Below, piece after piece: positions 37,777 through 55,316 of a DNA stretch of 56,555 bases (position 1 is the first letter of the stretch; every line of letters begins with the position of its first letter). A program made the position numbers and the translations under genes. This DNA is from Anaeromicrobium sp. Lineage in GTDB: Bacteria > Bacillota > Clostridia > Peptostreptococcales > Thermotaleaceae. The DNA is taken from the NCBI RefSeq assembly GCF_025210435.1, contig NZ_JAOART010000142.1:1-56555 (forward strand), in the 5' to 3' direction. The notes under the pieces are model-generated. The model did not search any database. It was given only the letters and a program-made list of their open reading frames with translations, and was not told where the DNA came from.

Positions 37777-38100
37777 TTGAATCCTGCAATATGGATATCT
37801 ATATATTTACCAATGTTTGTAGTACTATTTATTTTAATACCATCTGAACATAGAATTATTACTGCTAAAATTAAGCAAAAGAAGAAAAGAGGCGTTAAAA
37901 TGTCAAATGACTTAATTAAAAGTTATATAGGTAAGGTTTGTAATATATCATCTGGTTCCTTCGGTCCTAAGTTCCAAAAAGTAAAAATTATTGAAGTGGT
38001 GGATAATTGGATTAAGGTTGAAGGAAAAGGGAAAATAGATTTGATCAATATAGACTTCATCCAAAACATTAAGATATTAGATAGCAAATATCAGAAGTAA
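37777..38100 (+). CDS. Hypothetical protein with N-terminal membrane helix
   Basis: A 107-residue protein: one membrane segment (about residues 4-22), a very basic linker (KIKQKKKRGVK) and a small C-terminal beta domain (IGKVCNISSGSFGPKFQKVK, then WIKVEGKGKIDLINIDFIQN) that resembles small Sm-like or coat-associated domains. Function unknown. The TTG at 37777 has AAAGGTG 9 bases before it; a GTG at 37765 overlaps that site. An internal ATG (VKMSNDLIK) preceded by GAGGCG could give a soluble short form. Confidence 0.55.
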   Translation: MNPAIWISIYLPMFVVLFILIPSEHRIITAKIKQKKKRGVKMSNDLIKSYIGKVCNISSGSFGPKFQKVKIIEVVDNWIKVEGKGKIDLINIDFIQNIKILDSKYQK

Positions 38101-38124
38101 TTATCATGATGAAACCATATAGAT

Positions 38125-38150
38125 AGGGAACTTTTAAAGTTCTCTTTTTT
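38125..38150 (+). terminator. Terminator
   Basis: AGGGAACTTT pairs with AAAGTTCTCT around a minimal loop, followed by six T. It resembles the terminator after carB, as if duplicated with it. Confidence 0.75.
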
Positions 38151-38257
38151 AATGTAATGGAATAAACTAAATGATTAGTTTGTATTTATTAATAAGGGAC
38201 AATTAATATGAAAATATGTAATTGGATTTGAATAATAGTATGAAGGGGGATTTTTCT

Positions 38258-38773
38258 ATGAGTTATACTACAAATGGAATACCACAGAAGTTACCCTTAA
38301 ATATGTGTAGCCTATTAAGGGAAGGATTGGTAGGGGAGATAGTAGCTATTGATGCATATGAAAGACATATGGCTCAAAGTGCAAATCCAGAGTTTAATAG
38401 GGTTTGGTCATATATTTTAAAAAGAGAGAAGATTCATTACGGAATATTTTTAGATTTGATAAGAGAATATGATCTAGTAGAATATGAAGAGTATTTAAGT
38501 GTAAAAGAAAAACTTCATGTGAAAAAGGGAAGTACTAAAAAGTGTATACTTAGACAAGATGATTCCTTATTAAATATGATTAGGGAAGATATAAAGGGAG
38601 AATGTGAGGCCATATTATTATATGAAAAGCACTTATCGATGGTAAATATACCAAAAGTGAGGAAAGCATTAGAAGGGGTAATAAGGGATGAAAAGCGTCA
38701 TGTGGAAATGTTAACATTATTATTATTAAATTATGATAAAGATTCCTATGGACCTATAAGTGTCAGGGGATAA
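38258..38773 (+). CDS. Ferritin-like diiron protein
   Basis: A 171-residue four-helix protein with ligands in the rubrerythrin/ferritin order: E27 (GEIVAIDAYERH), E57-x-x-H60, E117 (GECEAILLYEKH) and E145-x-x-H148 (RDEKRHVEM). It may serve in peroxide or oxygen defence or iron handling; some relatives are annotated as DUF2202/Coq7-like. No rubredoxin domain is present. The ATG at 38258 follows AAGGGGGA by 7 bases. Confidence 0.85.
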   Translation: MSYTTNGIPQKLPLNMCSLLREGLVGEIVAIDAYERHMAQSANPEFNRVWSYILKREKIHYGIFLDLIREYDLVEYEEYLSVKEKLHVKKGSTKKCILRQDDSLLNMIREDIKGECEAILLYEKHLSMVNIPKVRKALEGVIRDEKRHVEMLTLLLLNYDKDSYGPISVRG

Positions 38774-38878
38774 ATGAGCTAGCGCATTTTATCGAAAAAT
38801 ATCGTATTAAGGTTTGCATATATGATATATATATGATAATCTATTTTCGATAGATAAGTTGAAAGTAGGTGGTAGGAA

Positions 38879-39535
38879 GTGTTTAATAACATTGAAGCTG
38901 TAATATTTGACTTAGATGGAACCTTAGTAGATTCCATGTGGATATGGCTAGATATTGATATAGAATATTTAAAAAGAAAGAATGTGGATGTGGATAGTAT
39001 AGATCACTTAAAGTTGCAAAAGGATATAGAGGGTATGAGCTATACGGAAGTTGCCCTATATTTTAAGGATACTTTTAATCTAGAGGATTCCATAGAACAG
39101 ATAAAGGCTGATTGGCTAGATATGACTAGGGAATTTTATGCTGAGAAGATTCTATTGAAAGAAGGGGTAAAGGAACTTTTAGATAATATAAAAGATAATG
39201 AACTAAAACTTGGTGTTGCCACAAGTAATACAAGGGAATTAGTGGATGCAGTTCTTAAAAATAACGAAATACATGATTATTTTGAGATTATAAGAACTTC
39301 ATGTGAAGTTGAAAAGGGAAAGCCCCATCCTCACATATATTTAAAGGTTGCAGAGGATTTAGGTGTAGATCCACAAAACTGCCTTGCCTTTGAAGATACC
39401 CACGCAGGTGTATTGGCAGCTAAAAGTGCAGGTATGAAAGTATTTGCCATAGCAGATGAAACTTCACTACCTTTTAAAGAGGACATTATGAAGGATGCAG
39501 ATAGATATTTAAATGGATACCATGAAATTGCTTAA
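38879..39535 (+). CDS. HAD family phosphatase, beta-phosphoglucomutase-like
   Basis: A 218-residue HAD subfamily IA protein. Motif I is FDLDGTLVDSMW (nucleophile Asp 11), the helical cap spans about 18-90, motif II is VATSNTR, motif III is around EKGKPHP, and motif IV is AFEDTHAGVLAA. It probably dephosphorylates a small sugar phosphate or nucleotide. The GTG at 38879 follows AGGTGG. A terminator follows. Confidence 0.92.
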   Translation: MFNNIEAVIFDLDGTLVDSMWIWLDIDIEYLKRKNVDVDSIDHLKLQKDIEGMSYTEVALYFKDTFNLEDSIEQIKADWLDMTREFYAEKILLKEGVKELLDNIKDNELKLGVATSNTRELVDAVLKNNEIHDYFEIIRTSCEVEKGKPHPHIYLKVAEDLGVDPQNCLAFEDTHAGVLAAKSAGMKVFAIADETSLPFKEDIMKDADRYLNGYHEIA

Positions 39536-39560
39536 AAGTCGAGCTTAAAAGCTCGGCTTT
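39535..39560 (+). terminator. Terminator of the HAD gene
   Basis: AAGTCGAGCTT pairs with AAGCTCGGCTT and is followed by a short T-rich stretch. Confidence 0.8.
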
Positions 39561-39606
39561 AATAATGATAAATTGGGAAAACTATATCCAATATAAATGT
39601 ATGTGG

Positions 39607-39768
39607 GCCTACTTCAGGAAAATATATTGAAATTTTTTCCATTGAAGTCCTTGTCACAAGCGAAAGTGTGAATCTTCGTAGATAGGTTCATGAGTCATGT
39701 TCAAGTAGCATAGGATGTTGTGACGTTCCCGGGTTCCAAAAATTTTCAATATATTTTCCCTTGTAGGC
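39607..39768 (+). repeat. Dispersed hairpin repeat, copy 3 (complete)
   Basis: The same layout as copy 2: left arm GCCTACTTCAGGAAAATATA, inner GTCACAA/TTGTGAC pair, right arm ending TTTTCCCTTGTAGGC, then AAGTTACTGTA. It lies 70 bases before rlmD and in the same orientation. One arm base change (TTGTAGGC for TTATAGGC) and CCCGGG for CCAGGG in the interior mark slow divergence. Confidence 0.88.
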
Positions 39769-39839
39769 AAGTTACTGTACAGGGAAAGATTAGGATTGAA
39801 AAATTTATAGATATGAAGATCAGTTAAAAGGAGAATAAT

Positions 39840-41204
39840 ATGAAAAAGAAATCCATAATTGAAATAAAAATTGAAGAAGTAGAATTTCCTTCAAAGGGAA
39901 TCGGTTATTACGAAGGTAAGAAAATATATGTAAAAAATGGTATCGTAGGCCAAGTTGTAAAGGTATATATTAAAAAGGTAAGAAAAGAATATGCAGAGGG
40001 AAAACTGTTAGAAGTTATAAGTAGGTCTGAAAATGAAAGGGATTCTTTTTGTCCTCACTTTGGTCTATGTGGTGGATGTGCTAACCAAACGGTTGAGTAT
40101 GATGACCAAGTAAAATTAAAGGAAAAGCTAGTTAAAAAGCTTCTTGATGATGCGGGAGTAAAAGGATATGAATTTGAAGGAATAGAAAAAAGTCCTGAAG
40201 TCTATGAATATAGAAATAAGATGGAGTATTCCTTTGGAGATGAAACAAAGGGTGGTATACTAAATCTTGGAATGCACAAAAGAGGATCTTTCCAATCTGT
40301 AGTAACGGTAGATCAGTGTAAATTAGTAGACGATGATTTTAATAAGATATTAAAGACAGCTCTAGATTATTTTAGAGAAAGACAAGTTCCACACTACAAT
40401 GCTAAAACTCACCAAGGATTTTTGAGACACTTTATTGTTAGAAAAGCTAAAGGAACTAAAGAGATATTAGTAAATTTAGTTACTTCAACTCAAATGGATA
40501 TGGATATGAGTCAATTAGTTGAAATGACTAAGAATTTAGATTTAGATGGTAAGTTAGTTGGATATTTACATACTTTTAATGACAACTTATCTGATTGTGT
40601 AACTAATGAAAAATTAGAAATATTATATGGAAGAGACTATTTCTACGAAGAAATATTAGGTCTTAAGTTTAAAATATCAGCCTTTTCATTCTTCCAAACA
40701 AATCCACTTGGAGCGGAAAAACTATACTCTATAGCTATGGACTATATGGGAGATGCAAAGGACAAGGTTGTATATGACCTATATTGCGGAACAGGAACTA
40801 TAGGACAGATCGCATCAACTCGTTCTAAAGAAGTATATGGTATAGAACTTATTGAGGAAGCAGTTGAAGCTGCTAATGAAAATGCCAAGTTAAATGGACT
40901 TACTAATTGTCAATTTATAGCTGGGGATGTATTTGAGAAGTTAGATGAATTGGCTAAAAAGCCAGAGGTTATTATTGTAGACCCACCAAGGGTAGGTATT
41001 AATCCAAAGGCACTTAAGAAGATATTAAGGTATAAGTGTAAGGAGATTGTGTATGTATCTTGCAATCCAAAGTCACTAGCCGAGAATTTGGCTGATATGC
41101 AGGAGTATGGATATAAGGTTAAGAAGGTGAGATGCATGGACATGTTCCCTCATACGCCTCATGTTGAGACAGTAGTGAGGATAGAGAAGGCGTTGTCTAA
41201 GTAA
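39840..41204 (+). CDS. rlmD: 23S rRNA (uracil-C5) methyltransferase RlmD/RlmCD-type
   Basis: A 454-residue SAM-dependent enzyme that methylates a uracil in 23S rRNA. An N-terminal TRAM domain (about 1-60) precedes an iron-sulfur Cys set (C71, C77, C80 in CPHFGLCGGC). The SAM site is VVYDLYCGTGTIG, and the nucleophilic Cys 408 lies in VYVSCNPKSL. Firmicute members often act on two uracils (RlmCD). The last two codons and stop (TCT AAG TAA) are contributed by the TGTCTAAG end of the Tn7-like element, so the protein end is altered by a few residues. The ATG follows AGGAG. Confidence 0.93.
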   Translation: MKKKSIIEIKIEEVEFPSKGIGYYEGKKIYVKNGIVGQVVKVYIKKVRKEYAEGKLLEVISRSENERDSFCPHFGLCGGCANQTVEYDDQVKLKEKLVKKLLDDAGVKGYEFEGIEKSPEVYEYRNKMEYSFGDETKGGILNLGMHKRGSFQSVVTVDQCKLVDDDFNKILKTALDYFRERQVPHYNAKTHQGFLRHFIVRKAKGTKEILVNLVTSTQMDMDMSQLVEMTKNLDLDGKLVGYLHTFNDNLSDCVTNEKLEILYGRDYFYEEILGLKFKISAFSFFQTNPLGAEKLYSIAMDYMGDAKDKVVYDLYCGTGTIGQIASTRSKEVYGIELIEEAVEAANENAKLNGLTNCQFIAGDVFEKLDELAKKPEVIIVDPPRVGINPKALKKILRYKCKEIVYVSCNPKSLAENLADMQEYGYKVKKVRCMDMFPHTPHVETVVRIEKALSK

Positions 41205-41262
41205 AACAAACCCTTTCATTTTAAAATAAACTCTTTGCATTTTTAAAATAAAGTTTTGTAAT
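41194..41262 (+). repeat. Transposon end on the rlmD side with two TnsB-like sites
   Basis: TGTCTAAG starts the end inside rlmD. TTTTAAAATAAA occurs at 41219 and 41241, exactly 22 bases apart, within two similar 22-bp units (CATTTTAAAATAAACTCTTT and CATTTTTAAAATAAAGTTTT). Tn7 TnsB sites are also about 22 bp. Confidence 0.8.
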
Positions 41263-41328
41263 GAAAGAGTTTGTCTGATATAGGGGCAAAAAATGGAAGT
41301 AAAAATGGAAATATGAATAGAATTATTA

Positions 41329-41373
41329 AGGGGAAAGAATCATGGTTTAAGCCTTGAATCTAGCCCCTTTTTT
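41329..41373 (+). terminator. Terminator inside the transposon end
   Basis: AAGGGG and TAGCCCCTT bound a long stem with an inner ATCATGGTTT/AAGCCTTGAAT part and a run of T. It now ends rlmD transcription and insulates the cargo. The same hairpin lies in the second end copy at 54599-54643. Confidence 0.8.
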
Positions 41374-41489
41374 ATCTTTATATATACATTTGAAGGTAAA
41401 TTTGTTATGAAATTATGGAAAAATTTAGTTTATTAGATTACAATATATATATAAGAATTTTATAGAAAAAACTTATAAAAGGTGATATA

Positions 41490-42212
41490 ATGGCTAAATT
41501 TACTTCTAAAGCATTAAAAATTGTGAAAGACTATTTTGATGAAGGAAAATTTATTATTCAAGAGGGCAGAATATATAAAAAATATGCGAATTATTACTCT
41601 ATAACAGTTGATGGTAAAGGATATTCTATAATGACCAAAAAAATTATAAAGTTCTTAGAAGATGGTATTTGGATTTCGAGGTCTAGAAAAGTGACTTCAA
41701 AAGTGCTTTCAACTATAAAAGAAAAATATGATAATAAAGAAATAATTATCAGAAATAATTGTATTTATAAAAAATATGGAGGAAAACATCAAAGAGGTTA
41801 CATTCATTTTTGGAGTACAATTGAAGGAATTAAGTATAGAACTTTTGCTCATAAAATAATATATTTTTTACATTATGGGATATGGGATGATGTAAATGTA
41901 ATAAATCATTTAGATGGCAATAAAGAAAATAATAGAATTGAAAATTTAGAATTAATTTCCCAATTTGAAAATGTACTTTATTCATTAAGAAATGATGAAA
42001 TTATTTTTTATATAGACTTTATTGATGATGTGACTAGAGCGAAATATAGATTAGATGGAACACTATGGAAAATATTTAAGGAAGAAGCATATTCTAATGC
42101 TAGAAGAAATGTTTTAAATAGTTATCCGCATGATATTTTAGATTATGAAGCATGGAGAAACTGTAATACTTTTGAAGAATATGAAGAATATATTAACAAG
42201 AATAGAAAATAA
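41490..42212 (+). CDS. HNH endonuclease-like protein with duplicated N-terminal module
   Basis: A 240-residue cargo protein. Residues about 5-60 and 69-130 are two copies of a module: SKxLxxxxxYxxxxxxI, then IYKKY, then a hydrophobic helix ending in GIW. An HNH_3-type motif follows: H121 (FAHKIIYFL), N139-H140 and NNRIENLEL (about 147-155). Such proteins are phage or homing endonucleases, but the role here could be defence or an orphan. The start has AAAGGTG upstream. It is the first gene after the transposon end. Confidence 0.75.
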   Translation: MAKFTSKALKIVKDYFDEGKFIIQEGRIYKKYANYYSITVDGKGYSIMTKKIIKFLEDGIWISRSRKVTSKVLSTIKEKYDNKEIIIRNNCIYKKYGGKHQRGYIHFWSTIEGIKYRTFAHKIIYFLHYGIWDDVNVINHLDGNKENNRIENLELISQFENVLYSLRNDEIIFYIDFIDDVTRAKYRLDGTLWKIFKEEAYSNARRNVLNSYPHDILDYEAWRNCNTFEEYEEYINKNRK

Positions 42213-42328
42213 GAAGGTTTTGAGAGTTGAACATATAACAGAATTTAGAAAAATTGTATTAATTGGAGTTATGTGATAAAAATAAAAATCTAAAATTCAT
42301 CTGAAATTTTAAAAGGGGGAAGAAAGCT

Positions 42329-43356
42329 ATCGGTAATATTTATAATAGACTATTAAGGTTATATAGAAAAAATAAAGATTCTGGGAAAACACCATTAGAA
42401 GATTATACTACAGAGATTTTAGTAGGCTTGCTTCAAGAAAATCCTAATATACTTAATGATTTTGTAAATAATGTATTAGAAATTGCAGGAGATAATTTTC
42501 GAGTACAGTCTCAAAGAAAATTTTATTTAAAAAATGATACTGATTGCATAGTTGATATTGTATTGGAAAATGATTATACAATCTGTTTCATTGAAAATAA
42601 GGTCAATTCTACAGAAGGTGATAGACAGCTAGAAAGATATGGCAAGATTCTTGACAATATACTGAAAGAGGAAAACAAGAGTGTTTATTTGAGATATTGC
42701 ACCAAATATTATGATAAAAAAACATTACCAATATAGATTTTAAGCAGTTCAGATGGATGAATGTCTATAAATTTTTAAAAAGATATGAAGATAACAAAAT
42801 AGTTAGACAATTTTTAGATTTTATGAGGAGTGAGGAAATGTCTAGTGCAGGAGAGTTTAACTTTCAAGATATGATAGTTTTAAGTAATGTTAATTATACC
42901 TTTTCAAAAATAAATGAATGCTTTGATAATGTAAGAAGTATGTTGGCAGATAGTTTTGGAGTATCAAAACAGACATCTACTGTAAAACAGATTAATGAGA
43001 GTAATGGTTGTTGGTTATGGGTAGAACAAGTATTTGGACAAGGATATTCGGAAGTATATGTGGGATTCTCTATTTCGGCAAATGAGGGAAAAATAATCCC
43101 TAATTTGATGGTAGGTATAAAGTGTAAAAAAAACAATGATAATTGTAGTAAGTTTAATGAAATTATAGAAGATGATGATAGTGTTTTTGATTGTATATAT
43201 GTAGGTAATGATGGAAGTAATGCATGGTTTAAAGAACCACTTTCTAAATTTATATCTAGTGAAAATCAGCTAGCCGAAATACAGGAATGGTTTGTAAAAA
43301 AGTTAGAGGAGTTAGATGAATTTAGAAAAAATACTAGTGAATTGGATTGGAAATAG
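42329..43356 (+). pseudogene. PD-(D/E)XK nuclease family protein, frameshifted, ATC start
   Basis: Reading GNIYNRLLRLYRKNKD from an ATC at 42329 (AAGGGGG 9 bases upstream) gives the usual family N-terminus. The nuclease core is VDIVLENDYTICFIENK, with D76, E89 and K91 as catalytic residues. At 42716-42722 a run of seven A shifts the frame and stops it at 42736; one A fewer would join it to the next frame, which continues DFKQFRWMNVYKFLKRYED through to 43356. The restored protein is about 342 residues. It is either broken, rescued by slippage on the A run, or a sequence error. Such proteins are common defence genes. Confidence 0.75.
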
Positions 43357-43436
43357 GAGTTTGCGTATATGAAATTATAATTTTTTATTTAAATACATGA
43401 GTATGTATAATTGAACATAATGGAAAGGATATCTAA

Positions 43437-44309
43437 ATGAAAAATATTGTGAAGATAGATAGCAATAATATATATCAGTCATTTGTGGATAATTTCGGTA
43501 TAAATAAAGGCGTTGTTGAGGAGTATATTTACTCTAATTTAAGAGAACTATTATGTGTAGACAGTGTGAAAGAAATAAATGTGCAAAAATTTATAAATTA
43601 TATTATAAGTAAATCCAGTGATTCTATTAAAAGTGTAGAAGATGTTTATATTGATAAAATAACTATTTCACATTTAACAACTAGAAAAAATAAAAAAGAA
43701 TTAGAGAATAATCCAATAAGAAATTTATTTAATGTATTAACTGAATCAACGACGCTACAAAAACATTTTGCTAAGCATAATATTATATTTAAAAAATATA
43801 AAGGAATTTTAAGAATATATAATGATGGAATACTAGTTGATTTTAGTGATTATTATAATAAGTCAAATGGACCAACAGCTAGAATGATTTCAAGAAGGTT
43901 TGAAGGAAATAGTTTTTATGGGCCAGATAAATGTGTCAATGGATTCTTATTCAATAAAGAGCTTGAATCAAATGGAAATGTAAGACATATTCAATATTAT
44001 CCAGAGATACTTGAAAATATTGCTAGAGTAATAAAAAAGAATGAATTAATAAACGATTGGCAATATCAAAATAAAACTTTTAAAGTGACTTTTTGGGTAG
44101 ATGTAAATAATCTTACATTTGATAATAATAAATATTTAAATTATAAAAGAAAAGTATTTCTGATATACAGATATTTATTATATTTTTTGATTAAAGATAT
44201 GTATTCAAATTGGGATGGACATGATAACCCAATTATACGACTTAAAGATGGAATAGATGTGAGCAGCAAAGATATTTATTTGATTGAAGAGATTAAGGAG
44301 CGAATTTAA
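43437..44309 (+). CDS. Cargo protein of unknown function, 290 residues
   Basis: A soluble, AT-biased protein with no family recognised. GGAAAGG precedes the ATG. It has basic stretches (LTTRKNKKELENNPIRN) and an aromatic middle part (RRFEGNSFYGPDKCVNGFLF). It sits between a nuclease gene and further unknown cargo, so a role in defence or in the element is possible but unsupported. Confidence 0.65.
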   Translation: MKNIVKIDSNNIYQSFVDNFGINKGVVEEYIYSNLRELLCVDSVKEINVQKFINYIISKSSDSIKSVEDVYIDKITISHLTTRKNKKELENNPIRNLFNVLTESTTLQKHFAKHNIIFKKYKGILRIYNDGILVDFSDYYNKSNGPTARMISRRFEGNSFYGPDKCVNGFLFNKELESNGNVRHIQYYPEILENIARVIKKNELINDWQYQNKTFKVTFWVDVNNLTFDNNKYLNYKRKVFLIYRYLLYFLIKDMYSNWDGHDNPIIRLKDGIDVSSKDIYLIEEIKERI

Positions 44310-44404
44310 GTTATACTATATAACCCAAAGTATTGATAATTAAAAAATATATATAAGTTCCAGAGTGTGGTAATTACAATAATTAGTGCTGATTTATGGA
44401 AATA

Positions 44405-44468
44405 AGCGGTATAATAAAGTTATATCCAATAAAAAAATAATATAGATATAGAGGGGTCTTTTCATAGA
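44405..44468 (+). repeat. Duplicated cargo upstream sequence, copy A
   Basis: AGCGGTATAATAAAGTTATA, then GATATAGAGGGGTCTTTTCA and TAG are shared with 45687-45752. TATAAT could be a -10 box. Confidence 0.7.
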
Positions 44469-44497
44469 AGAAGTTTACCACTTAAATAAGCGGTAGG

Positions 44498-44686
44498 GTG
44501 CCCTGCTTAGGACAGTTGCTTCAGAGAATGGAAGAAGATGATGCGATATATGCCATAGCAGTAACAGATATTCCTCAATATTATAATCAATGTAAACAGA
44601 TAAAGAGATGGTTACTACAAAATTTAAATATTTATTTTATATTTGTAAGTATAGATAAAGATGTTAAAATATTAATACCAAAGTGA
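44498..44686 (+). pseudogene. C-terminal fragment of a lost cargo gene
   Basis: A 62-residue open stretch from GTG with no ribosome site. GQLLQRMEEDDAIYAIAV followed by a hydrophobic strand (IYFIFVSIDKD) resembles the last part of restriction-like nucleases with a Q-x-x-x-Y type helix, seen by pattern only. The start of the gene is missing. Confidence 0.4.
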
Positions 44687-44767
44687 TGAACTATAAGAAT
44701 AGTAAAATGAAACTTTGCATTATTTAGTTTTATTTGTAATGAATATAATCTAGGGGGAATAAGTGTT

Positions 44768-45652
44768 ATGGGTATGATTGAATATAGAGATTATGCAGAT
44801 ATTAAAAAAATTCTAGAGCTTTATATTTCTAAAAATAATAATCAAGTTGTAGCGGACTTACTTTCATTCTATTTTTTCGATGAAATAATACATATTGAAG
44901 AGAAAAATGGATTTTTTAAATTATATTGGAAAAATTATGATATACAAAATATGGATGAGGTAATTGATATTTTTCAAGCACATTATATATATTTGGGAGG
45001 ACAGATTGAAAAAATAAAAGTAGTTAATATGGATGGAAGAGAATATATAGTTATTAAAATGTTCAGAATGGAACATAGAGATATAAGAAGGAGTTTAGGA
45101 CTTCCGAATAATCATCCGATTGTATCAAGTAGTGCTGACTTTTTTTCAGAATTGAGATATATTAAGAACAATAAAGTTTATCAATGTATTATAAATGATA
45201 TGCCTTTTTTTAGTGTGGTTTTAACTCGCAAACCAGGTCCTAATATTGAATATACAACAGATTTTCTTAGATTTATGAATTTAATAGATATTGAAGAACA
45301 GGTAGAATCAATAAAAAGTGATGCTAAGAACACAAATAAATATGATTATATGAAAATTAGTAATATGGGAAATTCATTGAGAGTTCTATTGGAGAGAGCA
45401 TTAAAGTTCTATAATATTAACCTAAATAGTAATTATATTACAACTGCTAATTATAGAAAGAAAACATTAAATCAGCTTGAACAAGATGTTAAAAAAAATA
45501 ACACCAATATGGATAAGTTAATTGAACAGAAAAAAAGATGGATAATGAATGATTATTCCCATGATTCTGGCAGTCGTCCTAATTTAAATGATATAGAGAT
45601 GTTAGCAGACTATATAATAAATATATTATATGCAATGGCAGAAGATTTATAG
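44768..45652 (+). CDS. Cargo protein of unknown function, possible HEPN-like C-terminus
   Basis: A 294-residue protein. The first 190 residues are unrecognised (DYADIKKILELYISKNNNQV and onward). The last 90 are helical: SNMGNSLRVLLERALKFY, a Lys-rich linker, and YSHDSGSRPNLNDIEMLADY near the end, a layout like the final helices of HEPN/DUF4145 proteins, in which H-x-x-G is common. No RxxxxH motif is seen, so the link is weak. GGGGG lies 10 bases before the ATG. Confidence 0.6.
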   Translation: MGMIEYRDYADIKKILELYISKNNNQVVADLLSFYFFDEIIHIEEKNGFFKLYWKNYDIQNMDEVIDIFQAHYIYLGGQIEKIKVVNMDGREYIVIKMFRMEHRDIRRSLGLPNNHPIVSSSADFFSELRYIKNNKVYQCIINDMPFFSVVLTRKPGPNIEYTTDFLRFMNLIDIEEQVESIKSDAKNTNKYDYMKISNMGNSLRVLLERALKFYNINLNSNYITTANYRKKTLNQLEQDVKKNNTNMDKLIEQKKRWIMNDYSHDSGSRPNLNDIEMLADYIINILYAMAEDL

Positions 45653-45686
45653 TGTTTTAGGTAAAGGCTACAAAAATACATTTTGA

Positions 45687-45752
45687 AGCGGTATAATAAA
45701 GTTATATCAATTTATAATAAAATAATTTGAATATAGAGGTGTCTTTTCATAG
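45687..45752 (+). repeat. Duplicated cargo upstream sequence, copy B
   Basis: The same block as 44405-44468, 1.28 kb downstream, before the small membrane gene. The middle A/T tract differs. Confidence 0.7.
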
Positions 45753-45841
45753 ATGCAATTATTACTTTAAAAAAAGTGACTAATTTGCAGATATGGAAAG
45801 GCATCTTTTGTTTTATCTGTGAAGAAATGAGGTGATTAATC

Positions 45842-46111: not shown

Positions 46112-46115
46112 AAGC

Positions 46116-46928
46116 ATGAAAGGGAGAGGAAATTTGAATTTTAGCAAGAAAGACCTAAGAAAATATAATCAAGAAAATCGAGGAAAGGGAGAAGGTTCTA
46201 GTTATATTCTTTGGACAAAGATAAATGAATTTTCCTCAAAAGGTAGAGCAAGTAGAATATATGGAATCAAAAGCAATAGAATCCACCATCTACATTCTGA
46301 TAATCAGTTAAGAGCATTCTTACTATTTGAATTCAGTCCTAAGGTTATTGATATAAGGGAGAGTTACCCCCTAATTGATATTTTTAATGTAATTGATGAT
46401 AAAGAGACTTTAAGATTTGATAAGTTTAAGGATTCAAAGAGTGGTGAGTATTTTGTATTGACCACAAATTTTTTATTAACACTAAAAGACGGAGGTTCAA
46501 CAAAATATATTGCGAGAGCTGTAAAAAACTGCTCTGAATTTAATAGAAAAACTATCATTGAAAAACTGGAGATAGAAAGACGATATTGGCATGCAAAAGG
46601 AATTGACTTTAAAGTCATAACGAACAAAGAGCTAAACAGACAATTTTGTAAGAATATTGAATGGGTTAGAGAAACGGTAATTAATGAAAAAGATAGTGGA
46701 TTAGACATTTATACTTTATCAAATGAATTATATTCTTTTTTACAAAATAATAGCCATATTCGATTAAAAGACTTATTAAAGGAATTTGACCGTATCAAAG
46801 AACTAGAAGATGGGACAGGACTATATTTATTCAGATATTTGATAGCCAAAAGAACAATTAATATTGATATGAGGTTAAAAGTAGATTTAAATTCTACAGT
46901 AGAAGATATAGTCATAGGGTATGCGTAA
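46116..46928 (+). CDS. tnsA: TnsA-like endonuclease with substituted catalytic residues
   Basis: A 270-residue homologue of Tn7 TnsA, which nicks the 5' ends of the element. RASRIYGIKSNRIHHLHSDN and VIDIRESYPL align well with Tn7 TnsA (recalled from memory), as does EKLEIERRYWHAKGIDFKVI. At the Tn7 catalytic positions E63, D114 and K132 this protein has Q64 (SDNQLRAF), N118 (TTNFLLT) and K137 (RAVK). Two of three are changed to the non-acidic look-alike. The nuclease is thus probably dead, while TnsC/TnsB contacts may remain. A TTG at 46134 is an alternative start with a closer ribosome site. Confidence 0.9.
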   Translation: MKGRGNLNFSKKDLRKYNQENRGKGEGSSYILWTKINEFSSKGRASRIYGIKSNRIHHLHSDNQLRAFLLFEFSPKVIDIRESYPLIDIFNVIDDKETLRFDKFKDSKSGEYFVLTTNFLLTLKDGGSTKYIARAVKNCSEFNRKTIIEKLEIERRYWHAKGIDFKVITNKELNRQFCKNIEWVRETVINEKDSGLDIYTLSNELYSFLQNNSHIRLKDLLKEFDRIKELEDGTGLYLFRYLIAKRTINIDMRLKVDLNSTVEDIVIGYA

Positions 46929-46940
46929 AGGAGGGAGAGA

Positions 46941-49061
46941 ATGATTTATGAAAATGCATTAATTAAATATACAAATGGTAAAATTGCAAGAATTTTATAT
47001 ATAGATAATTTAGCTCAAGTTAGTATTCTTATCAGTATGGATGTAAATAGATGGCCGTATATTAACAAAATAGAACAATTGGAAAAGGATTTAAAGCAAG
47101 AATGTGCAAGCATCTTAGAAGGTGATGATTATACTCCATTGATTATAGAGGAAGAGATAAAACCATTAGAATTACAAAAAAGAGATGAAATTTGGGAAGT
47201 TGTGCAGTATGTGTTAAGTAATAAGCTAGAAGAGAAAAACCTCTATATTAGCAAATATAGAACACCTGTTATTAAAGAAGCAGCTACTCGTTATGATATA
47301 AGTGAGAACACTATAAAAAATTATTTGATTCGATTTTGGAAAGGTGGAAAGACAAAAAACAGTTTATTACCTAAATATCTTAATTGTGGAGGTAGAGGGA
47401 AAGAAAGAAGTATATCAGCAAATAAGAGAGGAAGACCAATAATTATTGGAACAAATACAGGGGTAAATGTGGATAATAATATGAAGAAAATATTTAAAAC
47501 TGGATTAAATAAATACTACTATAACGACAGAAGAAATAGCATAAAAACAACATATGAACTAATTATAAAAGATTATTTTGTCAAGGATTATGCTATTCAA
47601 AATGGTGTGAAAGTTCCTATTTTAGAAGATAGCTCTAAAATACCAACTTATCATCAATTTTACTATTGGTTCAAGAAGTTTAATGATAGTAAAAAAGAAG
47701 TAATGAAGAGGCAAGGGGATAGAATATATTATCAGAATTATAGAAGTATAATTGGTAATTCAATAACGGATGCTGAATTTGGTCCAGGGAGTTTATATCA
47801 GATAGATAGTACTATTGCAGATATTTACTTGGTAAGTTCCCTTGATAGAAATTTGATAATATCTCGTCCTGTTTTATATTTTGTAATAGATGTATATTCA
47901 AGAGGCATTGTTGGTGTTCATGTAACTTTAGAATCTTTCAACTCATATACAGGAGCAATGATGGCATTAATAAATAGCATGACAAGTAAAAAAGAGTACT
48001 GCTCAAAATATGGAATAGATATAGATGAGGAAGAATGGCCTAATGCAATACCTTTGCGTATTTTGGCTGATAGAGGAGAATTAGTAAATGGTCAAATTGA
48101 GCAAGCAATAGAGAATTTAGGAATAATTATTCAAAATAGTCCTCCTTATAGAGCTGATTACAAAGGCATCATCGAAAGGTCCTTTGGTTCCATCAATTTA
48201 AAATTAAAACCATTCGTTGATGGAGCAGTTACAAATGGTATCAATAAAGTAGGGAGAGGAGAAAAGGATTATCGATTACAAGCCAATCTAACTCTAAAGG
48301 AATTCACTAAAATAGTGATAAAGTGTGTACTTTTTCATAATAATCACCATGTTTTAAGTAATTATATTATTGACGATATGGTTGTTGAGGAAAGTATAGA
48401 GAAGATACCGATTAAAATATGGAAATATGGAATTGAGAATAAAAAGGGCATGTTAAGGAAATTTCCAGAAAATATTATTAAACTAAATTTACTTCCAAGA
48501 GAAGAGGCAACGGTCAGTTCTAGAGGAGTAGCTTTTAAGAAAATGTTGTATGCATGTGAATATGCACTAAAGGATGGGTGGTTTCAGAAGGCACGAAGTA
48601 GTGGAAGCTGGAAAATAAAAGTGGCATATGACCCTCGTGATTTAACCAATATATATGTTTTAGATGAAGAAGGGAGAAACTATAAAACCCTATCCCTATT
48701 AGAGCATTTGAGTAAATATAAAGGTTTGAGCATGGATGAATATGATGAGTTTCAGCAACATGAGAAGGAGATGGAGACAAAAAGTAAAGAGAAAGAGCTT
48801 CAGCATAAAATTAAATTATATGGTGAAATAGAAGAAATTGTTGGGAAGGCAAGAGAGAAGGCTGAAATTCAAAAAGATGATACTTTATCAAAATCACAAA
48901 GACTTAAAGGTATTACAGAAAATAATAAGATAGAAAAGGAATTATATAAAGAAGCTATTGTAATAGGGGAAGAATCTAAGAATATTATAAGTGAAGGAAC
49001 AATTGAAAAAGAATATGATGAATTTGATATATTTACACAAATACAAGAAGAAATAAGGTGA
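46941..49061 (+). CDS. tnsB: TnsB-like DDE transposase
   Basis: A 706-residue transposase that cuts and joins the 3' ends. An N-terminal DNA-binding part holds a helix-turn-helix-like region (AATRYDISENTIKNYLIRFW, about 114-133). The retroviral integrase-like core has D289 (YQIDSTIAD), D377 (ILADRGELV) and E412 (DYKGIIERSFG), all intact. The C-terminus is Lys/Glu-rich and may contact TnsC. AAGGAGGGAGAG precedes the ATG, 12 bases after tnsA. The tnsC gene starts 4 bases after the stop. Confidence 0.95.
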   Translation: MIYENALIKYTNGKIARILYIDNLAQVSILISMDVNRWPYINKIEQLEKDLKQECASILEGDDYTPLIIEEEIKPLELQKRDEIWEVVQYVLSNKLEEKNLYISKYRTPVIKEAATRYDISENTIKNYLIRFWKGGKTKNSLLPKYLNCGGRGKERSISANKRGRPIIIGTNTGVNVDNNMKKIFKTGLNKYYYNDRRNSIKTTYELIIKDYFVKDYAIQNGVKVPILEDSSKIPTYHQFYYWFKKFNDSKKEVMKRQGDRIYYQNYRSIIGNSITDAEFGPGSLYQIDSTIADIYLVSSLDRNLIISRPVLYFVIDVYSRGIVGVHVTLESFNSYTGAMMALINSMTSKKEYCSKYGIDIDEEEWPNAIPLRILADRGELVNGQIEQAIENLGIIIQNSPPYRADYKGIIERSFGSINLKLKPFVDGAVTNGINKVGRGEKDYRLQANLTLKEFTKIVIKCVLFHNNHHVLSNYIIDDMVVEESIEKIPIKIWKYGIENKKGMLRKFPENIIKLNLLPREEATVSSRGVAFKKMLYACEYALKDGWFQKARSSGSWKIKVAYDPRDLTNIYVLDEEGRNYKTLSLLEHLSKYKGLSMDEYDEFQQHEKEMETKSKEKELQHKIKLYGEIEEIVGKAREKAEIQKDDTLSKSQRLKGITENNKIEKELYKEAIVIGEESKNIISEGTIEKEYDEFDIFTQIQEEIR

Positions 49062-49065: not shown

Positions 49066-50519
49066 ATGGATAAAAAAATATATTTGCCCAATGGGATGGA
49101 GGCAATAGAAGCAGTTTATAAAGAGTCAGAAATTGAAGAGTATAATAATAATCCTTTTATTCAAGCATTACCTCCTTTATACAAGAAAGAAGAAATTATA
49201 AGAAAGCTCATGTTGACACCAACAATGAAAAAAGAAGAAAAAGAATTAGATGCTACGATACGACTTCATATTATACAAAGATTATATAAAGTATTTCAGC
49301 CGTTACCAAGGCATATAGAGATATGGAATATGGTGAATTCTCTTATTAGGCAAGGTTATATTGCAAGAAATCCTTATGATAAAAATTACAAAAGATATGT
49401 GAATGAAACTGGGGAATCTCTTATAAATAAGAAATATGAGATAAGCAATAATATGAATTTTAGAACGACGGCAAGCTCTGGTCTTGTTATTGGATTTTCT
49501 GGCATGGGAAAGACAACAACTGTGAATCGTATTTTAAGCCATATCCCTCAAATCATTTGCCATAACTATTACAAGGAGCAACATTTTAATAATATGCAAT
49601 TGACGTGGCTTAAATTGGAAGCACCACATAATTCAAGTCTGAAGGCTTTAACTCTTCAATTCTTTATGAAAATCGATGAATTATTAGGAACAGAGAATTT
49701 TAAGAGGTATGTATCTAGAAATCTTTCGGTGGATGCAATGATGCCACTTATGGGTAAGGCTGCACAAAGTGTGAATTTAGGAATGCTTATCATAGATGAA
49801 TTACAAAACTTATCAAAGAATGTATCACAGATAATGAATTATTTCGTCACTCTTATCAATAGTTTGAGTTGAGGATTGCTAGAAGAGTTACGGGTAATGG
49901 TGAGGTCATATGGAATAATATGAACAATGATAAGGAGTTTAGATTATTTTTAAATGGTATATGGAAATATCAATGGGTAAGAAAAGAGACTAAATTAACT
50001 GATGAAATAACAAATTTGATATATGAGAAAACTCAAGGAATATCAGACCTAATAGTGAAGCTATTAGTAAATTCTCAATATAAGGCTATAAGTATAGGAA
50101 AAGAAGAGCTTACTTCAGAATTAATTGAGAAAGTGGCGGATGAAGAGTTTAGACTTATGAAACCTATGTTAGCAGCTATTCGCTCGAAAAACCCTTATAA
50201 AATAATGCAGTATGAAGATATTAGAAGGATTGAAGAAGTAGGAAATATAATAGTACCCAAAGACCAGATAAGACCATCTATTAATAGAAGAACTATAGTC
50301 AAAGAAAATAAGATAGATAAAAAGCAAGAAATAAATATTGAGCAAACAGTAAAAACAAAGACTAGGAATAAAAAAATAAAAGTAGAGGATTTACCGCAAG
50401 ATGATATTCGTGTGCTTGTAAATGAAGGAGTAAAAAAGAATTTAACTGTTCATGTAGTGTTTGTTAGCAATGGATTAATAGATAACTTAGAGTTCCTAGA
50501 GGTAGGTGATATAAATTGA
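49066..50519 (+). pseudogene. tnsC: TnsC-like AAA+ ATPase gene with internal deletion and frameshift
   Basis: The first part (49066-49872) carries Walker A GFSGMGKT (143-150) and Walker B LIIDELQNLS, then stops at NYFVTLINSLS. The second part resumes in another frame at 49863 with FELRIARRVTGNGEVIW and runs to 50519. In TnsC proteins about 15-20 residues (a strand with sensor 1, like PVVLIGT) normally lie between these points. Loss of roughly 50 bases that is not a multiple of three explains both gap and frame. TnsC links TnsD-bound target to TnsAB, so the element should not move without help. The stop overlaps the tniQ ATG. Confidence 0.88.
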
Positions 50520-52027
50520 TGAATTGTTTTCCACTTTTATATAAAGATTCTTTGCTTTATGATATTATATCCCGTTATAGACGTATGAATGGAATTATTA
50601 GCACTAAGGCATTGGTAAAAGATTTATATGGTAAAGAGGTAACACTAACATCTATATATTTTCCACCACATATAAGTGGTATTGTAAGTAATTTACCCTA
50701 TACCTCAAAAATTACAGAGGATATAATTATAAAAAACCATACGATGTATCCCTTTTATACAGCTTTTTTATCACCAGATAAATCAAAAGAAATTTATGAT
50801 GCTATGTCTGTTTCAAATGGGCATAGTTTTTTTAATAAAGTTGGAATTTGCAGTAGCCAAATAAGAATGAATAAGTATTTGAAGTTTTGTCCTATATGCT
50901 TCAAAGAGGACATGAAAAAATATGGAGAAAGTTATTGGAGAAGATTGCATCAGATTCCAGGAGTTTTTTATTGCTTAGAACATGAATGTGAGCTATTGGA
51001 TAGTGATGTAACACCAATTAACTGTAGAGTTCAGTATTCTTGTGCATATGAGGAAACATGTGTTGATATAGGGGAGAATAAAATTATAAATCCTAGATTT
51101 AAAGAGCTAAATCTACAATTGATTAGACAGGTAAATTATTTATTGAGAAATGATGTTGAGAGAAAAGAATTAGATTTTATAATTGATTTTTATATAGATA
51201 GATTAAGAGATAGAGGTCTTACAGCTTCATCAGGAGCCATATATATGAAAGAATTTCAGAGGGAATTTGTAAATTTTTATTCTCACGAGTATTTGCAGTT
51301 GCTTCAAAGTGATATTGATATAGAAAAAGAATATAATTGGCTAAGAGTATTTATAAGGCATAATGGTAAGAATAGAAATCCATTAAGACATTTGTTATTG
51401 TTGCAATTCCTTGGAGTAGAAGTAAAACATTTATTTCAATGCAAACAAGTAATAGGAAAACGTAAGGTAAATCATATACCTATACCAAAGTTAGATAGAG
51501 ATGAAATGAGAGAAAAATGGATACAAATTATAAAAGATAACCCAGATGCAACACGTTCAGAATTAAAGAAAATAGCAAAAGGAATACATACTTGGATTTA
51601 TAAACATGATAGGGAATGGTATGAACAGGTATCGCCAGCTCCTAAAAAGAAAAAAGAAAAATCTAACTTAATTAATTGGGAAAAGAGAGATGCAGAATGT
51701 TTAGTATTGGTCAAAAAGGCAGTGGAACAATTACTAAATCAAGAGGGTAAGCCTGTAAGAATATGCAAATCCACTATAAGAAGAAAATTAGGATTCAATA
51801 CGTGGTTCAATAATAAGAAACTGGTCAAGACGCATGAATATATTGAAAAGGTTAAAGAGGATATTGAGAGTTATAGAATAAGAAAGATTAAATGGGCTAT
51901 TAATGAGATGTTAGAAAAGGAGATGACCATTACTACATATAAGATTCAGTTGTATGCGGGATTTGGGGGGATAAATAAAGATGAAGTTAAAAATTTCATA
52001 TTAGAGCAATTAGGTCTACAATATTAA
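50519..52027 (+). CDS. tniQ: TniQ/TnsD-like target selector
   Basis: A 502-residue protein with the TniQ N-terminal domain (NCFPLLYKDSLLYDIISRY) and a zinc-binding site: C124-x2-C127 (KFCPICF), H144 and C152-x2-H155 (YCLEHECEL). A C-terminal TnsD-type DNA-binding region (about 320-500) contains helix-turn-helix-like segments. TnsD proteins bind a conserved site in the host gene next to the insertion, here presumably the 3' part of rlmD. The ATG at 50519 overlaps the tnsC stop, with AGGTGAT upstream. Confidence 0.9.
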   Translation: MNCFPLLYKDSLLYDIISRYRRMNGIISTKALVKDLYGKEVTLTSIYFPPHISGIVSNLPYTSKITEDIIIKNHTMYPFYTAFLSPDKSKEIYDAMSVSNGHSFFNKVGICSSQIRMNKYLKFCPICFKEDMKKYGESYWRRLHQIPGVFYCLEHECELLDSDVTPINCRVQYSCAYEETCVDIGENKIINPRFKELNLQLIRQVNYLLRNDVERKELDFIIDFYIDRLRDRGLTASSGAIYMKEFQREFVNFYSHEYLQLLQSDIDIEKEYNWLRVFIRHNGKNRNPLRHLLLLQFLGVEVKHLFQCKQVIGKRKVNHIPIPKLDRDEMREKWIQIIKDNPDATRSELKKIAKGIHTWIYKHDREWYEQVSPAPKKKKEKSNLINWEKRDAECLVLVKKAVEQLLNQEGKPVRICKSTIRRKLGFNTWFNNKKLVKTHEYIEKVKEDIESYRIRKIKWAINEMLEKEMTITTYKIQLYAGFGGINKDEVKNFILEQLGLQY

Positions 52028-52111
52028 AAATACATTTGAAATTTACCAAAATAAGGAGTAATATTGATAGTATAATTTATAGAATAATTTGTATTTAAAG
52101 GAGTTTTGAGA

Positions 52112-53017
52112 ATGGCAGACAAAGCATTGGAAAAGTTTAATGAAAGTATTGGTTATGAAAAAATTTTACTTAAAGAATCATTAACAATAAAATCTATTAA
52201 TACAGGTGTCAAATTAAGAGGCGGTATTGCATTTTTAAATCATGAATATGAATCTCATTTATTGAATCTTAGCGATAGTTTGGCGGGAAATAAGATTAAT
52301 AGCTTTATCAACAAAAATCTTCTACCATTAATTTTCACATCAAGTTTTAAAATTATAGATATGTTTATTGAGTTTATAATAGATTATAATGGTCATGAAG
52401 TACCATGGCAATTTGCTAAAAAAATTAAACTAGTTGATAATAATAGAAATTTATTTAATCTTCCAAATACATTGGAAAATAAAGAATTTCAAGCCATTTA
52501 TATGTTGTATAAAAATTTAACAAAAAAAAGAAATTTAATAGTTCATGGAGTTTGGGGAGAAGTAAAAAATGAAACTTTAGAATTTAAAGATGGCTCATGT
52601 ATTAACGATGAAAAAGTAATGTCATTGGCGAATATTGCATATTTAGTAATTAATATTCTTAATTTGGATGTTAGTAATCAGTTTTTTGAAGGAATAAAAT
52701 TTACCTTACATAGAAATTTAAATGTCATTTCTGATATTATAGGAAATAATTTCACAAAATTTGATGAAAATACTGTACTATTTTATCAAATAGAATATAA
52801 GATTACTAATAGTGACTTTAAAGTAGATGTGGGAAAAATAAAAAGAATGATTGATAGCGAAGTTAATTCTTATAGTAATGAAAATCATAAGTATAAGGGT
52901 ATATTTAAACTTATTGTGGAAAATGGAGATGATAAATGGATAATATCTTCTAATGAAATCGATGATAGCATAAATGAAATTGATTTAAAAGATTATGATA
53001 ATTTTAAGGAAGTTTAA
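52112..53017 (+). CDS. HEPN-like protein with RxxxxH motif
   Basis: A 301-residue cargo protein. Helices at about 65-92 and 123-147 end in KKRNLIVHGVWG, where R140 and H145 give the RX4-6H motif of HEPN ribonucleases. The C-terminal 120 residues are unrecognised. HEPN proteins often act as toxins in abortive defence. AAGGAG lies before the ATG at 52112. The metallopeptidase-like gene follows after 50 bases and might be its partner, but no such pair is established here. Confidence 0.65.
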   Translation: MADKALEKFNESIGYEKILLKESLTIKSINTGVKLRGGIAFLNHEYESHLLNLSDSLAGNKINSFINKNLLPLIFTSSFKIIDMFIEFIIDYNGHEVPWQFAKKIKLVDNNRNLFNLPNTLENKEFQAIYMLYKNLTKKRNLIVHGVWGEVKNETLEFKDGSCINDEKVMSLANIAYLVINILNLDVSNQFFEGIKFTLHRNLNVISDIIGNNFTKFDENTVLFYQIEYKITNSDFKVDVGKIKRMIDSEVNSYSNENHKYKGIFKLIVENGDDKWIISSNEIDDSINEIDLKDYDNFKEV

Positions 53018-53067
53018 AAATAGTGATGGTAATAAAATAGAAGATATGATAATAGAAGGTGAAGATA

Positions 53068-53658
53068 TTGGCAATTAAATATATAGAAATAAAAGCAACG
53101 AAAATTGAAAGAATGATAAAAAGTGAAGATTTTAAATGTTTTAAAAAACATATAGAAACAGTAATTGGAATAAAAAACGATATATACGAAATAGTAATAG
53201 AAAATGTTGCATATGATGAAAGTGGATTGCCTAATGAAGAAGTAAATGCTAGGGTTACATTTAAGAATAATTATTCTAAAGTTGATAAAATTGTATTTTT
53301 TAGAGATTCTTTAGGAAAAAATATTAATAGAAAATTTGGTAGAATATCACATAATAATGACATATTCAATAAAATTGCAGATATATATATTAAAAATGCA
53401 CTTGTGCATGAATTAGTGCACATCAAACAATTTGAAAATGGTAAGTTAACAATAGAAACAATTATGGATGAAAAAAAGTTACATTATACCGATAGAACTC
53501 TAGAAATTGAAGCGGAAAATAGAGCAAGAAAAATTATAAGTAGCTATGGAAATTTCGAAGAAGAGATAATGAAATATATAAGTTCTAAGAACTGCTTTAC
53601 TAATGATTCAATGTGTAAAATTGAAGAAATATATTTAGATAAAAAAACTAGTAAGTAA
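53068..53658 (+). CDS. HExxH metallopeptidase-like protein
   Basis: A 196-residue protein. ALVHELVHIKQFENG holds H114-E115-x-x-H118, followed about 30 residues later by LEIEAENRARKI, which could give the third zinc ligand (E147 or E150). This is the layout of ImmA/IrrE-like or SprT-like small metallopeptidases, though no HTH partner is seen. The start is TTG 53068 with GAAGGTG upstream. It lies in the second cargo block, behind the HEPN-like gene. Confidence 0.65.
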   Translation: MAIKYIEIKATKIERMIKSEDFKCFKKHIETVIGIKNDIYEIVIENVAYDESGLPNEEVNARVTFKNNYSKVDKIVFFRDSLGKNINRKFGRISHNNDIFNKIADIYIKNALVHELVHIKQFENGKLTIETIMDEKKLHYTDRTLEIEAENRARKIISSYGNFEEEIMKYISSKNCFTNDSMCKIEEIYLDKKTSK

Positions 53659-53753
53659 TAGTATAGTAATAAGAGAAAATTATATTTTAATATTTTGAAT
53701 TTAACTATAGACATTAAAAGAATAAAGAACTAGAAATGAGGTGTAATATTTAT

Positions 53754-54395
53754 ATGCTAAGGACGAATGAGTTTATGCTACAAGAATACATTAATAGACT
53801 AGAAGCTAACAGAATAACTTTAATAAGTGAAATAGAAGAACTATATAAATTTGACCTACAAACTTCTAATGCAAGATTTAACAAATTAATCTTCTATACA
53901 GATATACTAATTAAGTATTCAATGATGTCTTATAATAGTGCTATTCAAGATGACTATACATTCTCATATTTAAATTTAAGAAGAATGATAGAGGCATATT
54001 CATATATTGTTCTTTGGGTTTATTTTCATATATCTTATAAAGAATTTAATGAGAATTTTTTTTTCAAGTATGTGAAGGACTTTAAAATTGATAAAAAGAG
54101 TAAAAAAGGTATACCTAAAATACATCATCTAATTGACTGCAGTGAACTACTGAATTGTTTTGGAAACTCATTTGTTAAATCTAACAAAGATATAAAAAAC
54201 TCTTACAAAAACATAAGTGAAGAAGTTTTACATATTCCTAAATATAAAACAGGGTATACTCCATTATTAAAAAAAGTTATAACATTCATAGAAGTTGAAG
54301 AGCATTTGAAATTGAACTTATTAATTATGCAAAATACTTGTACATTATTCAATTATGTTAAAAAGCCCTTGATAAATCCAATTACTTTCGCTTAA
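53754..54395 (+). CDS. Cargo protein of unknown function, helical
   Basis: A 213-residue protein, largely helical. SYLNLRRMIEAYSYIVLWVY recalls the first helices of HEPN-type DUF proteins (in which LxRxxxE is common), but the RxxxxH motif is absent. The ATG at 53754 is favoured by GAGGTG 10 bases upstream; an ATG at 53736 is also possible. It is the last cargo gene before the end copies. Confidence 0.55.
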   Translation: MLRTNEFMLQEYINRLEANRITLISEIEELYKFDLQTSNARFNKLIFYTDILIKYSMMSYNSAIQDDYTFSYLNLRRMIEAYSYIVLWVYFHISYKEFNENFFFKYVKDFKIDKKSKKGIPKIHHLIDCSELLNCFGNSFVKSNKDIKNSYKNISEEVLHIPKYKTGYTPLLKKVITFIEVEEHLKLNLLIMQNTCTLFNYVKKPLINPITFA

Positions 54396-54463: not shown

Positions 54464-54645
54464 TGTCTAATTAAAACAACCCCTTTCAATTTAAAATAAA
54501 CTCTTTGCATTTTTAAAATAAAGTCTTGGAATGAAAGAGTTTGTCTGATATAGGGGCAAAAAAATGGAAGTAAAATGGAAATATGAATAGAATTATTAAG
54601 GGGAAAGAATCATGGTTTAAGCCTTGAATCTAGCCCCTTTTTTAT
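54464..54645 (+). repeat. Second copy of the rlmD-side transposon end
   Basis: From TGTCTAA to the terminator, about 182 bases match 41194-41375 with roughly seven differences. Both TnsB-like sites keep the 22-bp spacing (54489 and 54511). It points the same way as the first copy, so it is not the expected inverted end. No host gene remnant lies before it. Confidence 0.85.
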
Positions 54646-54838
54646 GTAGAAATTTAAGGACTAATAGAATATGGATTAACTCTAAGCCCCTGAAAAATAG
54701 AGGTTATTAAAGAAAAAATTAAATGGATTCATAATGAGATAAAATACTGAATCTTAGTAAATAAGTGCTGAAAAAATAGATTTTTAAATGGAAAAGAAAA
54801 GAGAAAATTAAAGAGCTCAATAATCAAAAATGAAAATG

Positions 54839-54925
54839 TTTATTTTAAAATAAAATAAAGTTTTGGAATGGACTTGAAAGAAAATGGAAAACGAAAAGCG
54901 TCATATTAAAAGACTTTATTTTAAA
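54839..54925 (-). repeat. Distal transposon end: inverted TnsB-like sites
   Basis: TTTATTTTAAA, the reverse of the sites near rlmD, occurs at 54839-54849 (in a palindrome TTTATTTTAAAATAAA) and at 54915-54925. Read inward on the minus strand, the outer one is TTCGTTCCAATTTAAAATAA. The outermost bases are unclear. Confidence 0.65.
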
Positions 54926-55100
54926 TTGGAACGAAAGAATGAGGGATTCAGATGGGTGAAAAGCAAATTGTTTATTATAAACTCACACACGTAAGTGTTG
55001 AAATAGCTAGTGTGTAGAGTTTCTATCGGTTTGTTGTCACAAGGGTCGGTTGGGACTAGCATGTAAATATAAATACGCAAAACTAAATATTAAAATAATT

Positions 55101-55131
55101 ACATCTATCCATTAAGGGTAGATGTTTTTTT
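55101..55131 (+). terminator. Terminator, perhaps the former rlmD terminator
   Basis: ACATCTATCC and GGGTAGATGT form a stem around ATTAA, followed by seven T. No gene lies between the transposon end and this hairpin, so it may be the original rlmD terminator, displaced by the insertion. The rest of 54946-55316 holds TTACTAG repeated three times at 55191-55210 and no gene. Confidence 0.65.
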
Positions 55132-55316
55132 ACTATGAAAATAATTATAATAGTTTGCCTTTGTAGGATAGAATTTAAACTTACTAGTTACTAGTTACTA
55201 AAGTATTTCGTTGTGGTAAAATAAGTAAAAAATAAAGGAATCTGTTATAATTAGATATACTGAGATTAATAAGTAAATTACTAGGAAATTAATAAAAGGA
55301 AAAGAGGGGATGAGAT

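Follow-up and report, generated by a model that had tools for sequence, protein, structure and literature searches.

A Tn7-like element inserted in the stop codon of rlmD supplies the end of the gene

Where does a gene end when a transposon begins inside its stop codon, and how did the transposon come to that codon? The question is raised by the window analysed here, a stretch of 56,555 bp that is the entire contig C102 of the draft genome G000. In this window, the frame of rlmD continues into the TGTCTAAG terminus of a Tn7-like element, by which the last three residues of the RlmD protein (LSK) and the stop codon are altered. An earlier note on this DNA had observed that a Tn7-like end completes rlmD: the observation is confirmed, and the interpretation that came with it is, as a whole, partly supported. 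The argument uses the following features.

39840..41204, + strand: rlmD, 23S rRNA uracil-1939 C5-methyltransferase family, 454 aa (TIGR00479, 324.1 bits against a cut-off of 183.55)
41133..41168, + strand: predicted TnsD recognition site, codons 432-443 of rlmD, CMDMFPHTPHVE, ending at Glu443 (placed by analogy with Tn7 and from the junction spacing)
41189..41193, + strand: left flank and left copy of the target duplication, GGCGT, ending in the T with which the former stop codon began
41194..41376, + strand: target-proximal end of the element, with a TGT terminus, TnsB-like repeats and a terminator-like hairpin
41328..41373, + strand: the terminator-like hairpin and six T (-18.9 kcal/mol, z -3.28, 1 of 200 shuffles as good)
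41490..42212, + strand: cargo, HNH endonuclease (PF13392, 3.2e-11)
42320..42736, + strand: cargo, fragment resembling PADLOC PDC-S26, a candidate for defence (PDLC04983, 1.8e-08, profile positions 70-150 of 413)
42757..45652, + strand: cargo, three ORFs (42757-43356, 43437-44309, 44768-45652), no family match
46116..46928, + strand: tnsA (PF08722, 5.6e-15; PF08721, 7.7e-15)
46941..49061, + strand: tnsB, 706 aa (PF09299, 2.5e-11)
49066..50519, + strand: tnsC, broken, a TnsC-type AAA/TniB-like ATPase by Pfam (overlapping ORFs 49066-49872 and 49869-50519)
50516..52027, + strand: tnsD, 503 aa, target selector (PF15978, 6.6e-49; PF06527, 7.6e-20; Tn7 TnsD structure 8glu, 3.6e-24)
52106..54395, + strand: cargo, three ORFs (52106-53017, 53059-53658, 53736-54395), no family match
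54464..54645, + strand: second copy of the proximal end, in direct orientation, 96% identical
54826..54987, + strand: distal end of the element, with inverted TnsB-like repeats and the terminus ACTCACA (the same end is found in the genomes G135 and G005)
54988..54992, + strand: right flank CACGT
54990..55132, + strand: continuation of the host DNA, matching what lies downstream of rlmD in the empty-site relative; a terminator-like hairpin and its T run occupy 55101-55131

The protein of the host gene also matches the RlmCD chains of S. pneumoniae (1.2e-64), and its Glu443 is aligned to E443, which PMC6235398 describes as the general base of the pneumococcal enzyme. Upstream of the gene, at 39600-39793, lies an interspersed repeat of about 190 bases whose three other copies (23754-23948, 1-121 and L048:1854-2034, one of them upstream of glmS) are 91-95% identical to it; at gathering score, Rfam has no match for the copy preceding rlmD, and none within 38000-56555.

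The junction is best read against the empty site of G001, the sole genome of the same genus in our sample, whose RlmD is 95% identical to that of the window. There, rlmD ends GCG TAA, and the protein ends ...IEKA. The left flank of the window matches G001 up to position 41193 and no further (88% over 43 bp), and the DNA downstream of rlmD in G001 resumes at 54990-55132 of the window (69% over 174 columns, E 2e-17). The insertion point is thus after the first base (T, 41193) of the stop codon. Since the stop codon is split after its T, the element supplies TG TCT AAG TAA: the codons across the junction are GCG, from the host, T|TG, made of the host T and two bases of the element, then TCT, AAG and TAA, which converts GCG TAA into GCG TTG TCT AAG TAA. 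The window protein ends ...IEKALSK. That the terminus lies inside the rlmD frame, as had been claimed, holds: the end TGTCTAAGTAAAACAAACCC begins at 41194, in frame. The element had been said to give the last two codons and the stop, which is right for the stop and for TCT AAG and too small in extent, for the element also gives two thirds of a third codon. A test had been set beforehand, namely whether relatives without the transposon share both the rlmD end and the 180 bases downstream, and G001 differs at both.

On the two sides of the element, the flanking 5-mers GGCGT and CACGT differ at 2 of 5 positions, so that the 5-bp target duplication of the window is imperfect, with 3 of 5 identical.

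The element itself spans 41194-54987, or 13,794 bp. Genes for TnsA and TnsB are present together with the broken gene for TnsC and a target selector of the TniQ/TnsD family, and cargo flanks the tns genes on both sides. Two other TnsB proteins are 39% and 46% identical to this TnsB, and D289, D377 and E412, which we take to be the DDE residues, are among the invariant columns. Compared with a relative of 490 amino acids in G201, tnsC lacks about 20 codons and has its frame shifted near 49870, and the window copy is consequently probably immobile by itself. Among the cargo, the HNH endonuclease sits directly inside the proximal end and has a weak PADLOC match to a homing endonuclease (HEase, 3.5e-06); PADLOC gives no match for the other six element ORFs submitted to it.

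The ends read TGT...ACA and carry arrays of TnsB-like repeats, as judged from their sequence, inverted between the two ends: they are about 22 bp apart at the rlmD side, and more widely spaced at the far end, which was placed by alignment to G135 and to a 306-bp mini-element of G005. In Tn7, glmS is adjoined by the right end, which lies nearest tnsA and has the denser array. The rlmD-side end of the window, also nearest tnsA and denser, presumably corresponds to this right end. The proximal end is repeated 0.5 kb ahead of the distal end; this second copy begins exactly at its TGT, and is preceded neither by a distal end nor by GGCGT. The genome G135, from another family, carries this second-copy module too (L078, reverse strand, about 7271-7451), preceded there by a TnsD remnant and further ORFs. 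Nested or adjacent insertions that yield several ends have been noted for Tn7-like elements (PMC8649781), and recombination between the two end copies would leave a mini-element at rlmD.

Why should such an element stop inside a stop codon? Tn7 reportedly lies in the terminator of glmS, by the title of one paper. According to PMC2918618, the TnsD protein of Tn7 occupies the final 36 bp of glmS, a stretch with active-site codons, and the element enters about 25 bp beyond the TnsD site, or about 20 bp past the stop of the gene. Between the codon of Glu443 and the element, the window has exactly 25 bases. The RlmD of the empty-site relative stops 8 codons after this catalytic residue, and a ruler of about 25 bp would therefore land on the stop codon, not beyond the gene. 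The likeness to Tn7, as it is described in that source, extends to TnsA, TnsB, TnsC and TnsD, to TGT ends with repeat arrays, and to an insertion shortly past active-site codons; the differences are the target, rlmD, and an insertion in the stop codon by an element that encodes the C-terminus and the stop.

The same genome offers a comparison. Its glmS (TIGR01135) is followed by another Tn7-like element, canonical in kind (L048, G000:C39, 2400-10990), whose first TGT, in a terminus assigned by eye, is 24 nt past the glmS stop; this bears out the earlier remark that Tn7-type sites such as glmS are hit downstream of the gene. The gene adjacent to the window element is rlmD, which sets this element apart from the glmS-targeting subtype. 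In a third place of this genome (L047, G000:C41, about 6750-11177), another tnsD and a tnsA-like ORF lie directly downstream of a gene of 430 amino acids that weakly resembles methionine gamma-lyase, below cut-off. This locus is a possible further Tn7-like site, since the mini-element of G005 is likewise preceded by a gene of equal length and with the same neighbourhood.

If the position of the junction reflects a choice of target, it should recur. RlmD is matched in 58 of 60 relatives, and the 30 best loci, with two more, amount to 32 distinct rlmD loci; 30 could be parsed (L039 could not, and L040 is cut off). The end follows rlmD in 2 of these 30, the window and G009, a remnant of it in one more, G014, and none was seen in the bases just after the frame in the other 27; the stop codon falls exactly at the insertion position in 12 of the 30. 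The 182-bp end was also compared with 394 genomes of the order and 391 of the class, both samples being draws from larger groups. In the order, four genomes have matches below E 1e-40 (G000, G005, G009 and G135), and 19 have matches at E 0.001; the other 15 matches are short, that of G014 lying at rlmD and the rest being probably due to chance. In the class, the 3 matching genomes at E 1e-5 are the genome of the window itself and two with short matches. One of 71 genomes in the family of G135 matches at 1e-8, and 2 of 4 in the genus of G009 at 0.001.

These copies stand in various relations to rlmD. In G005, the end is joined to a 3' fragment of rlmD, away from that genome's own rlmD: the mini-element, 306 bp long, with a perfect GAAAT duplication, lies in this fragment (L077:14866-15221, G005:C40), downstream of a 430-amino-acid gene for a PLP-enzyme-like protein, and the DNA to its right reads, as we take it, like part of a transposase. 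On an IMG/VR contig, L107, the end directly follows the final 11 codons and the stop of an rlmD, and the element sits two bases later, past rlmD's own stop. In G135, the end lies away from rlmD, which is empty; a TnsD remnant adjoins the end, and its C-terminal part is 71% identical to the TnsD of the window. Counted from the first base of the codon of His441, in the motif HVE, the TGT of the end is reached after 34 nt in the window, in G009 and in the rlmD fragment of G005, and after 36 nt on L107. A constant spacing from a conserved target characterizes Tn7-like insertion, and the present recurrence, with three junctions sharing one base and the fourth lying two bases away, is beyond chance.

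We thus consider it probable that a Tn7-like transposon with its own TnsD took the 3' end of rlmD as its attachment site. Most likely, TnsD would bind the conserved FPHTPHVE codons, at the catalytic end of RlmD, and TnsABC would insert the element at a fixed distance, about 25 bp downstream, where the ruler ends on the stop codon. The element end repairs the frame with LSK and TAA, and brings a terminator-like hairpin, while the former downstream hairpin of rlmD is now 13.9 kb away. With the residues, the stop and the hairpin provided by the element, rlmD should stay functional. Against this reading we count the unequal 5-mers of the window, the presence of tns genes at rlmD in the window only, the place of the G005 junction in a fragment apart from that genome's own rlmD, the lack of an rlmD near the C-terminal TnsD matches of other genomes, mostly drafts, discussed below, the empty rlmD of G135 despite its TnsD remnant, and the two bases by which L107 is off.

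The element had also been credited with a terminator of its own in place of that of the host, and this agrees with the sequence: the hairpin lies within the element end, and the one found just downstream of rlmD in G001 is now beyond the element, at 55101-55131. A simple terminator scan of 41000-41600 leaves the hairpin at 41328-41373 unflagged, for which its internal loops are the probable reason. In 6 of 6 end copies, the sequence folds into a hairpin with T after it (-11.1 to -18.9 kcal/mol), and the 3' arms differ between copies; shuffled sequences do as well in 1 of 200 cases for the window copies, 3 of 200 for the G005 copy and 109 of 200 for the G009 copy.

Has selection shaped the end so that, in the phase imposed by the target, it encodes a stop in frame and a C-terminus that does no harm? 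The three junctions at 34 nt all read xTG TC(T/C) AA(G/T) TAA, and the new tail of 11 residues after Glu443 falls within the 7 to 17 residues of relatives. However, when all 355 TGT sites of the element are considered, 40.6% of them would bring an in-phase stop no later than the third full codon, so that the encoded stop needs no special explanation; its letters overlap with the outermost TnsB-like repeat and may owe their conservation to it; and the insertion on L107 comes after rlmD's own stop. We hold such selection, a stronger form of what had been proposed earlier, to be unsupported and unlikely; on the sequences at hand, the terminator appears the better candidate for selection.

The position of the junction also bears on TnsD. 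Among the searches made with TnsD and with the end, tns genes are found beside rlmD in the window only, so that the specificity of TnsD is argued from position alone. No match to TnsA, TnsB, TnsC or TnsD is present in the 12-20 kb around the ends in G009, G005, G014 and L107, and a search for the distal end in the G009 and G014 loci did not find it. TnsD has matches in 5 of 17 genomes of the family at E 1e-60 and in 4 of 394 of the order at 1e-70, and its C-terminal part in 14 of 394 at 1e-12. In 11 of the 13 other genomes with a C-terminal match, mostly drafts, the position of rlmD is known, and it is near in none. The closest full-length relatives found outside are 47-48% identical, in 7 loci of Alicyclobacillus; the flanks fetched for these loci have no RlmD match, and the 5 genomes have no strong one (none at E 1e-60). 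The target of these relatives was not found, and the right flanks of four candidate distal ends differ among themselves. The viral_contigs set has no TnsD relative, plasmids have no match to the tns genes, and neither plasmids nor phages have one to the right-end module.

One could therefore suppose that TnsD recognises some other site, and that the window copy arrived in rlmD by accident, since a single tns-bearing copy was found there and the Alicyclobacillus relatives show no such neighbour. Junctions of different genomes at the same base make this quite improbable.

Serine integrases provide another candidate for the junction. Streptococcal ICEs with such integrases integrate in rumA, which is rlmD, exchange its 3' part and alter the C-terminus of RlmD (PMC4701971, for the part consulted), and the direct repeat CAGACGCATCACGTGGAG of an ICE (PMC13214566), which we translated, reads QTHHVE, the same codons as in the rlmD target. 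The gene is the same as in the window; the enzyme class is unrelated, and these ICEs carry out a reciprocal exchange within the gene, in contrast to a Tn7-like insertion at its stop. On L107, a split gene for a large serine recombinase (7234-9086, two ORFs with Resolvase, Recombinase and zinc-ribbon domains) reads into the rlmD tail, which is directly adjoined by the Tn7-like end of the mini-element; this contig also has matches to a phage portal, an amidase and a T4SS coupling protein. From the repeat and from this stacking, the two machineries appear to share a few codons of rlmD as their site. It could then be argued that an ICE made the junction of the window, and that the Tn7-like element merely travelled with it or joined it later, as the arrangement on L107 and the known exchange of the 3' part would allow. 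We find this very improbable: the element ORFs scanned with Pfam include no serine recombinase, which sets the element apart from ICEs, and the rlmD tail of the window matches G001 to the exact terminus of the Tn7-like end.

That the DNA after rlmD is ordinary host DNA, with no insertion at 41194, is a reading we reject as having next to no probability: the empty site of G001, whose downstream DNA resumes after 54987, rules it out, and nothing was found in its favour.

How new is the site? The gene rsmJ codes, like rlmD, for an rRNA methyltransferase. As far as PMC11406308 and PMC10293859 were consulted, other Tn7-like elements use sites (parE, tRNA genes, guaC, yciA, ffs, rsmJ, comM) that are likewise conserved in chromosomes, and find them through a dedicated selector or a guide RNA, the latter in the case of rsmJ (PMC11406308); rlmD is not among the sites named there. 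The earlier note did not recall rlmD as a described target of this type, and in the literature searched, consulted in part, no report of it was found, a mention in the tables of a large survey being possible; it is nevertheless a known integration gene, that of the serine-integrase ICEs.

It is tempting to go further, and to conjecture that the catalytic codons of rlmD are a general docking site, found independently by TnsD-guided transposases and by large serine integrases; that a Tn7-like family has adapted to it with an end that serves as a replacement 3' end of the gene, giving C-terminus, stop and terminator; and that short non-autonomous derivatives (306 and about 496 bp) live there and can be captured by integrase elements. 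We offer this tentatively, as a possibility that may well prove wrong; if it were true, the last residues of a host gene would be encoded by transposons. The finding adds a protein-guided attachment site of Tn7 type, not found in print in the literature searched, where the gene needs the element for its completion. The ruler of Tn7 becomes testable in this way, with equal spacing, another gene geometry and another outcome for the host frame, and the finding also suggests a convergence of two unrelated classes of mobile elements on the same codons of rlmD. A TnsD with a target of Firmicute type could also interest the builders of site-specific insertion tools, if an active copy were found.
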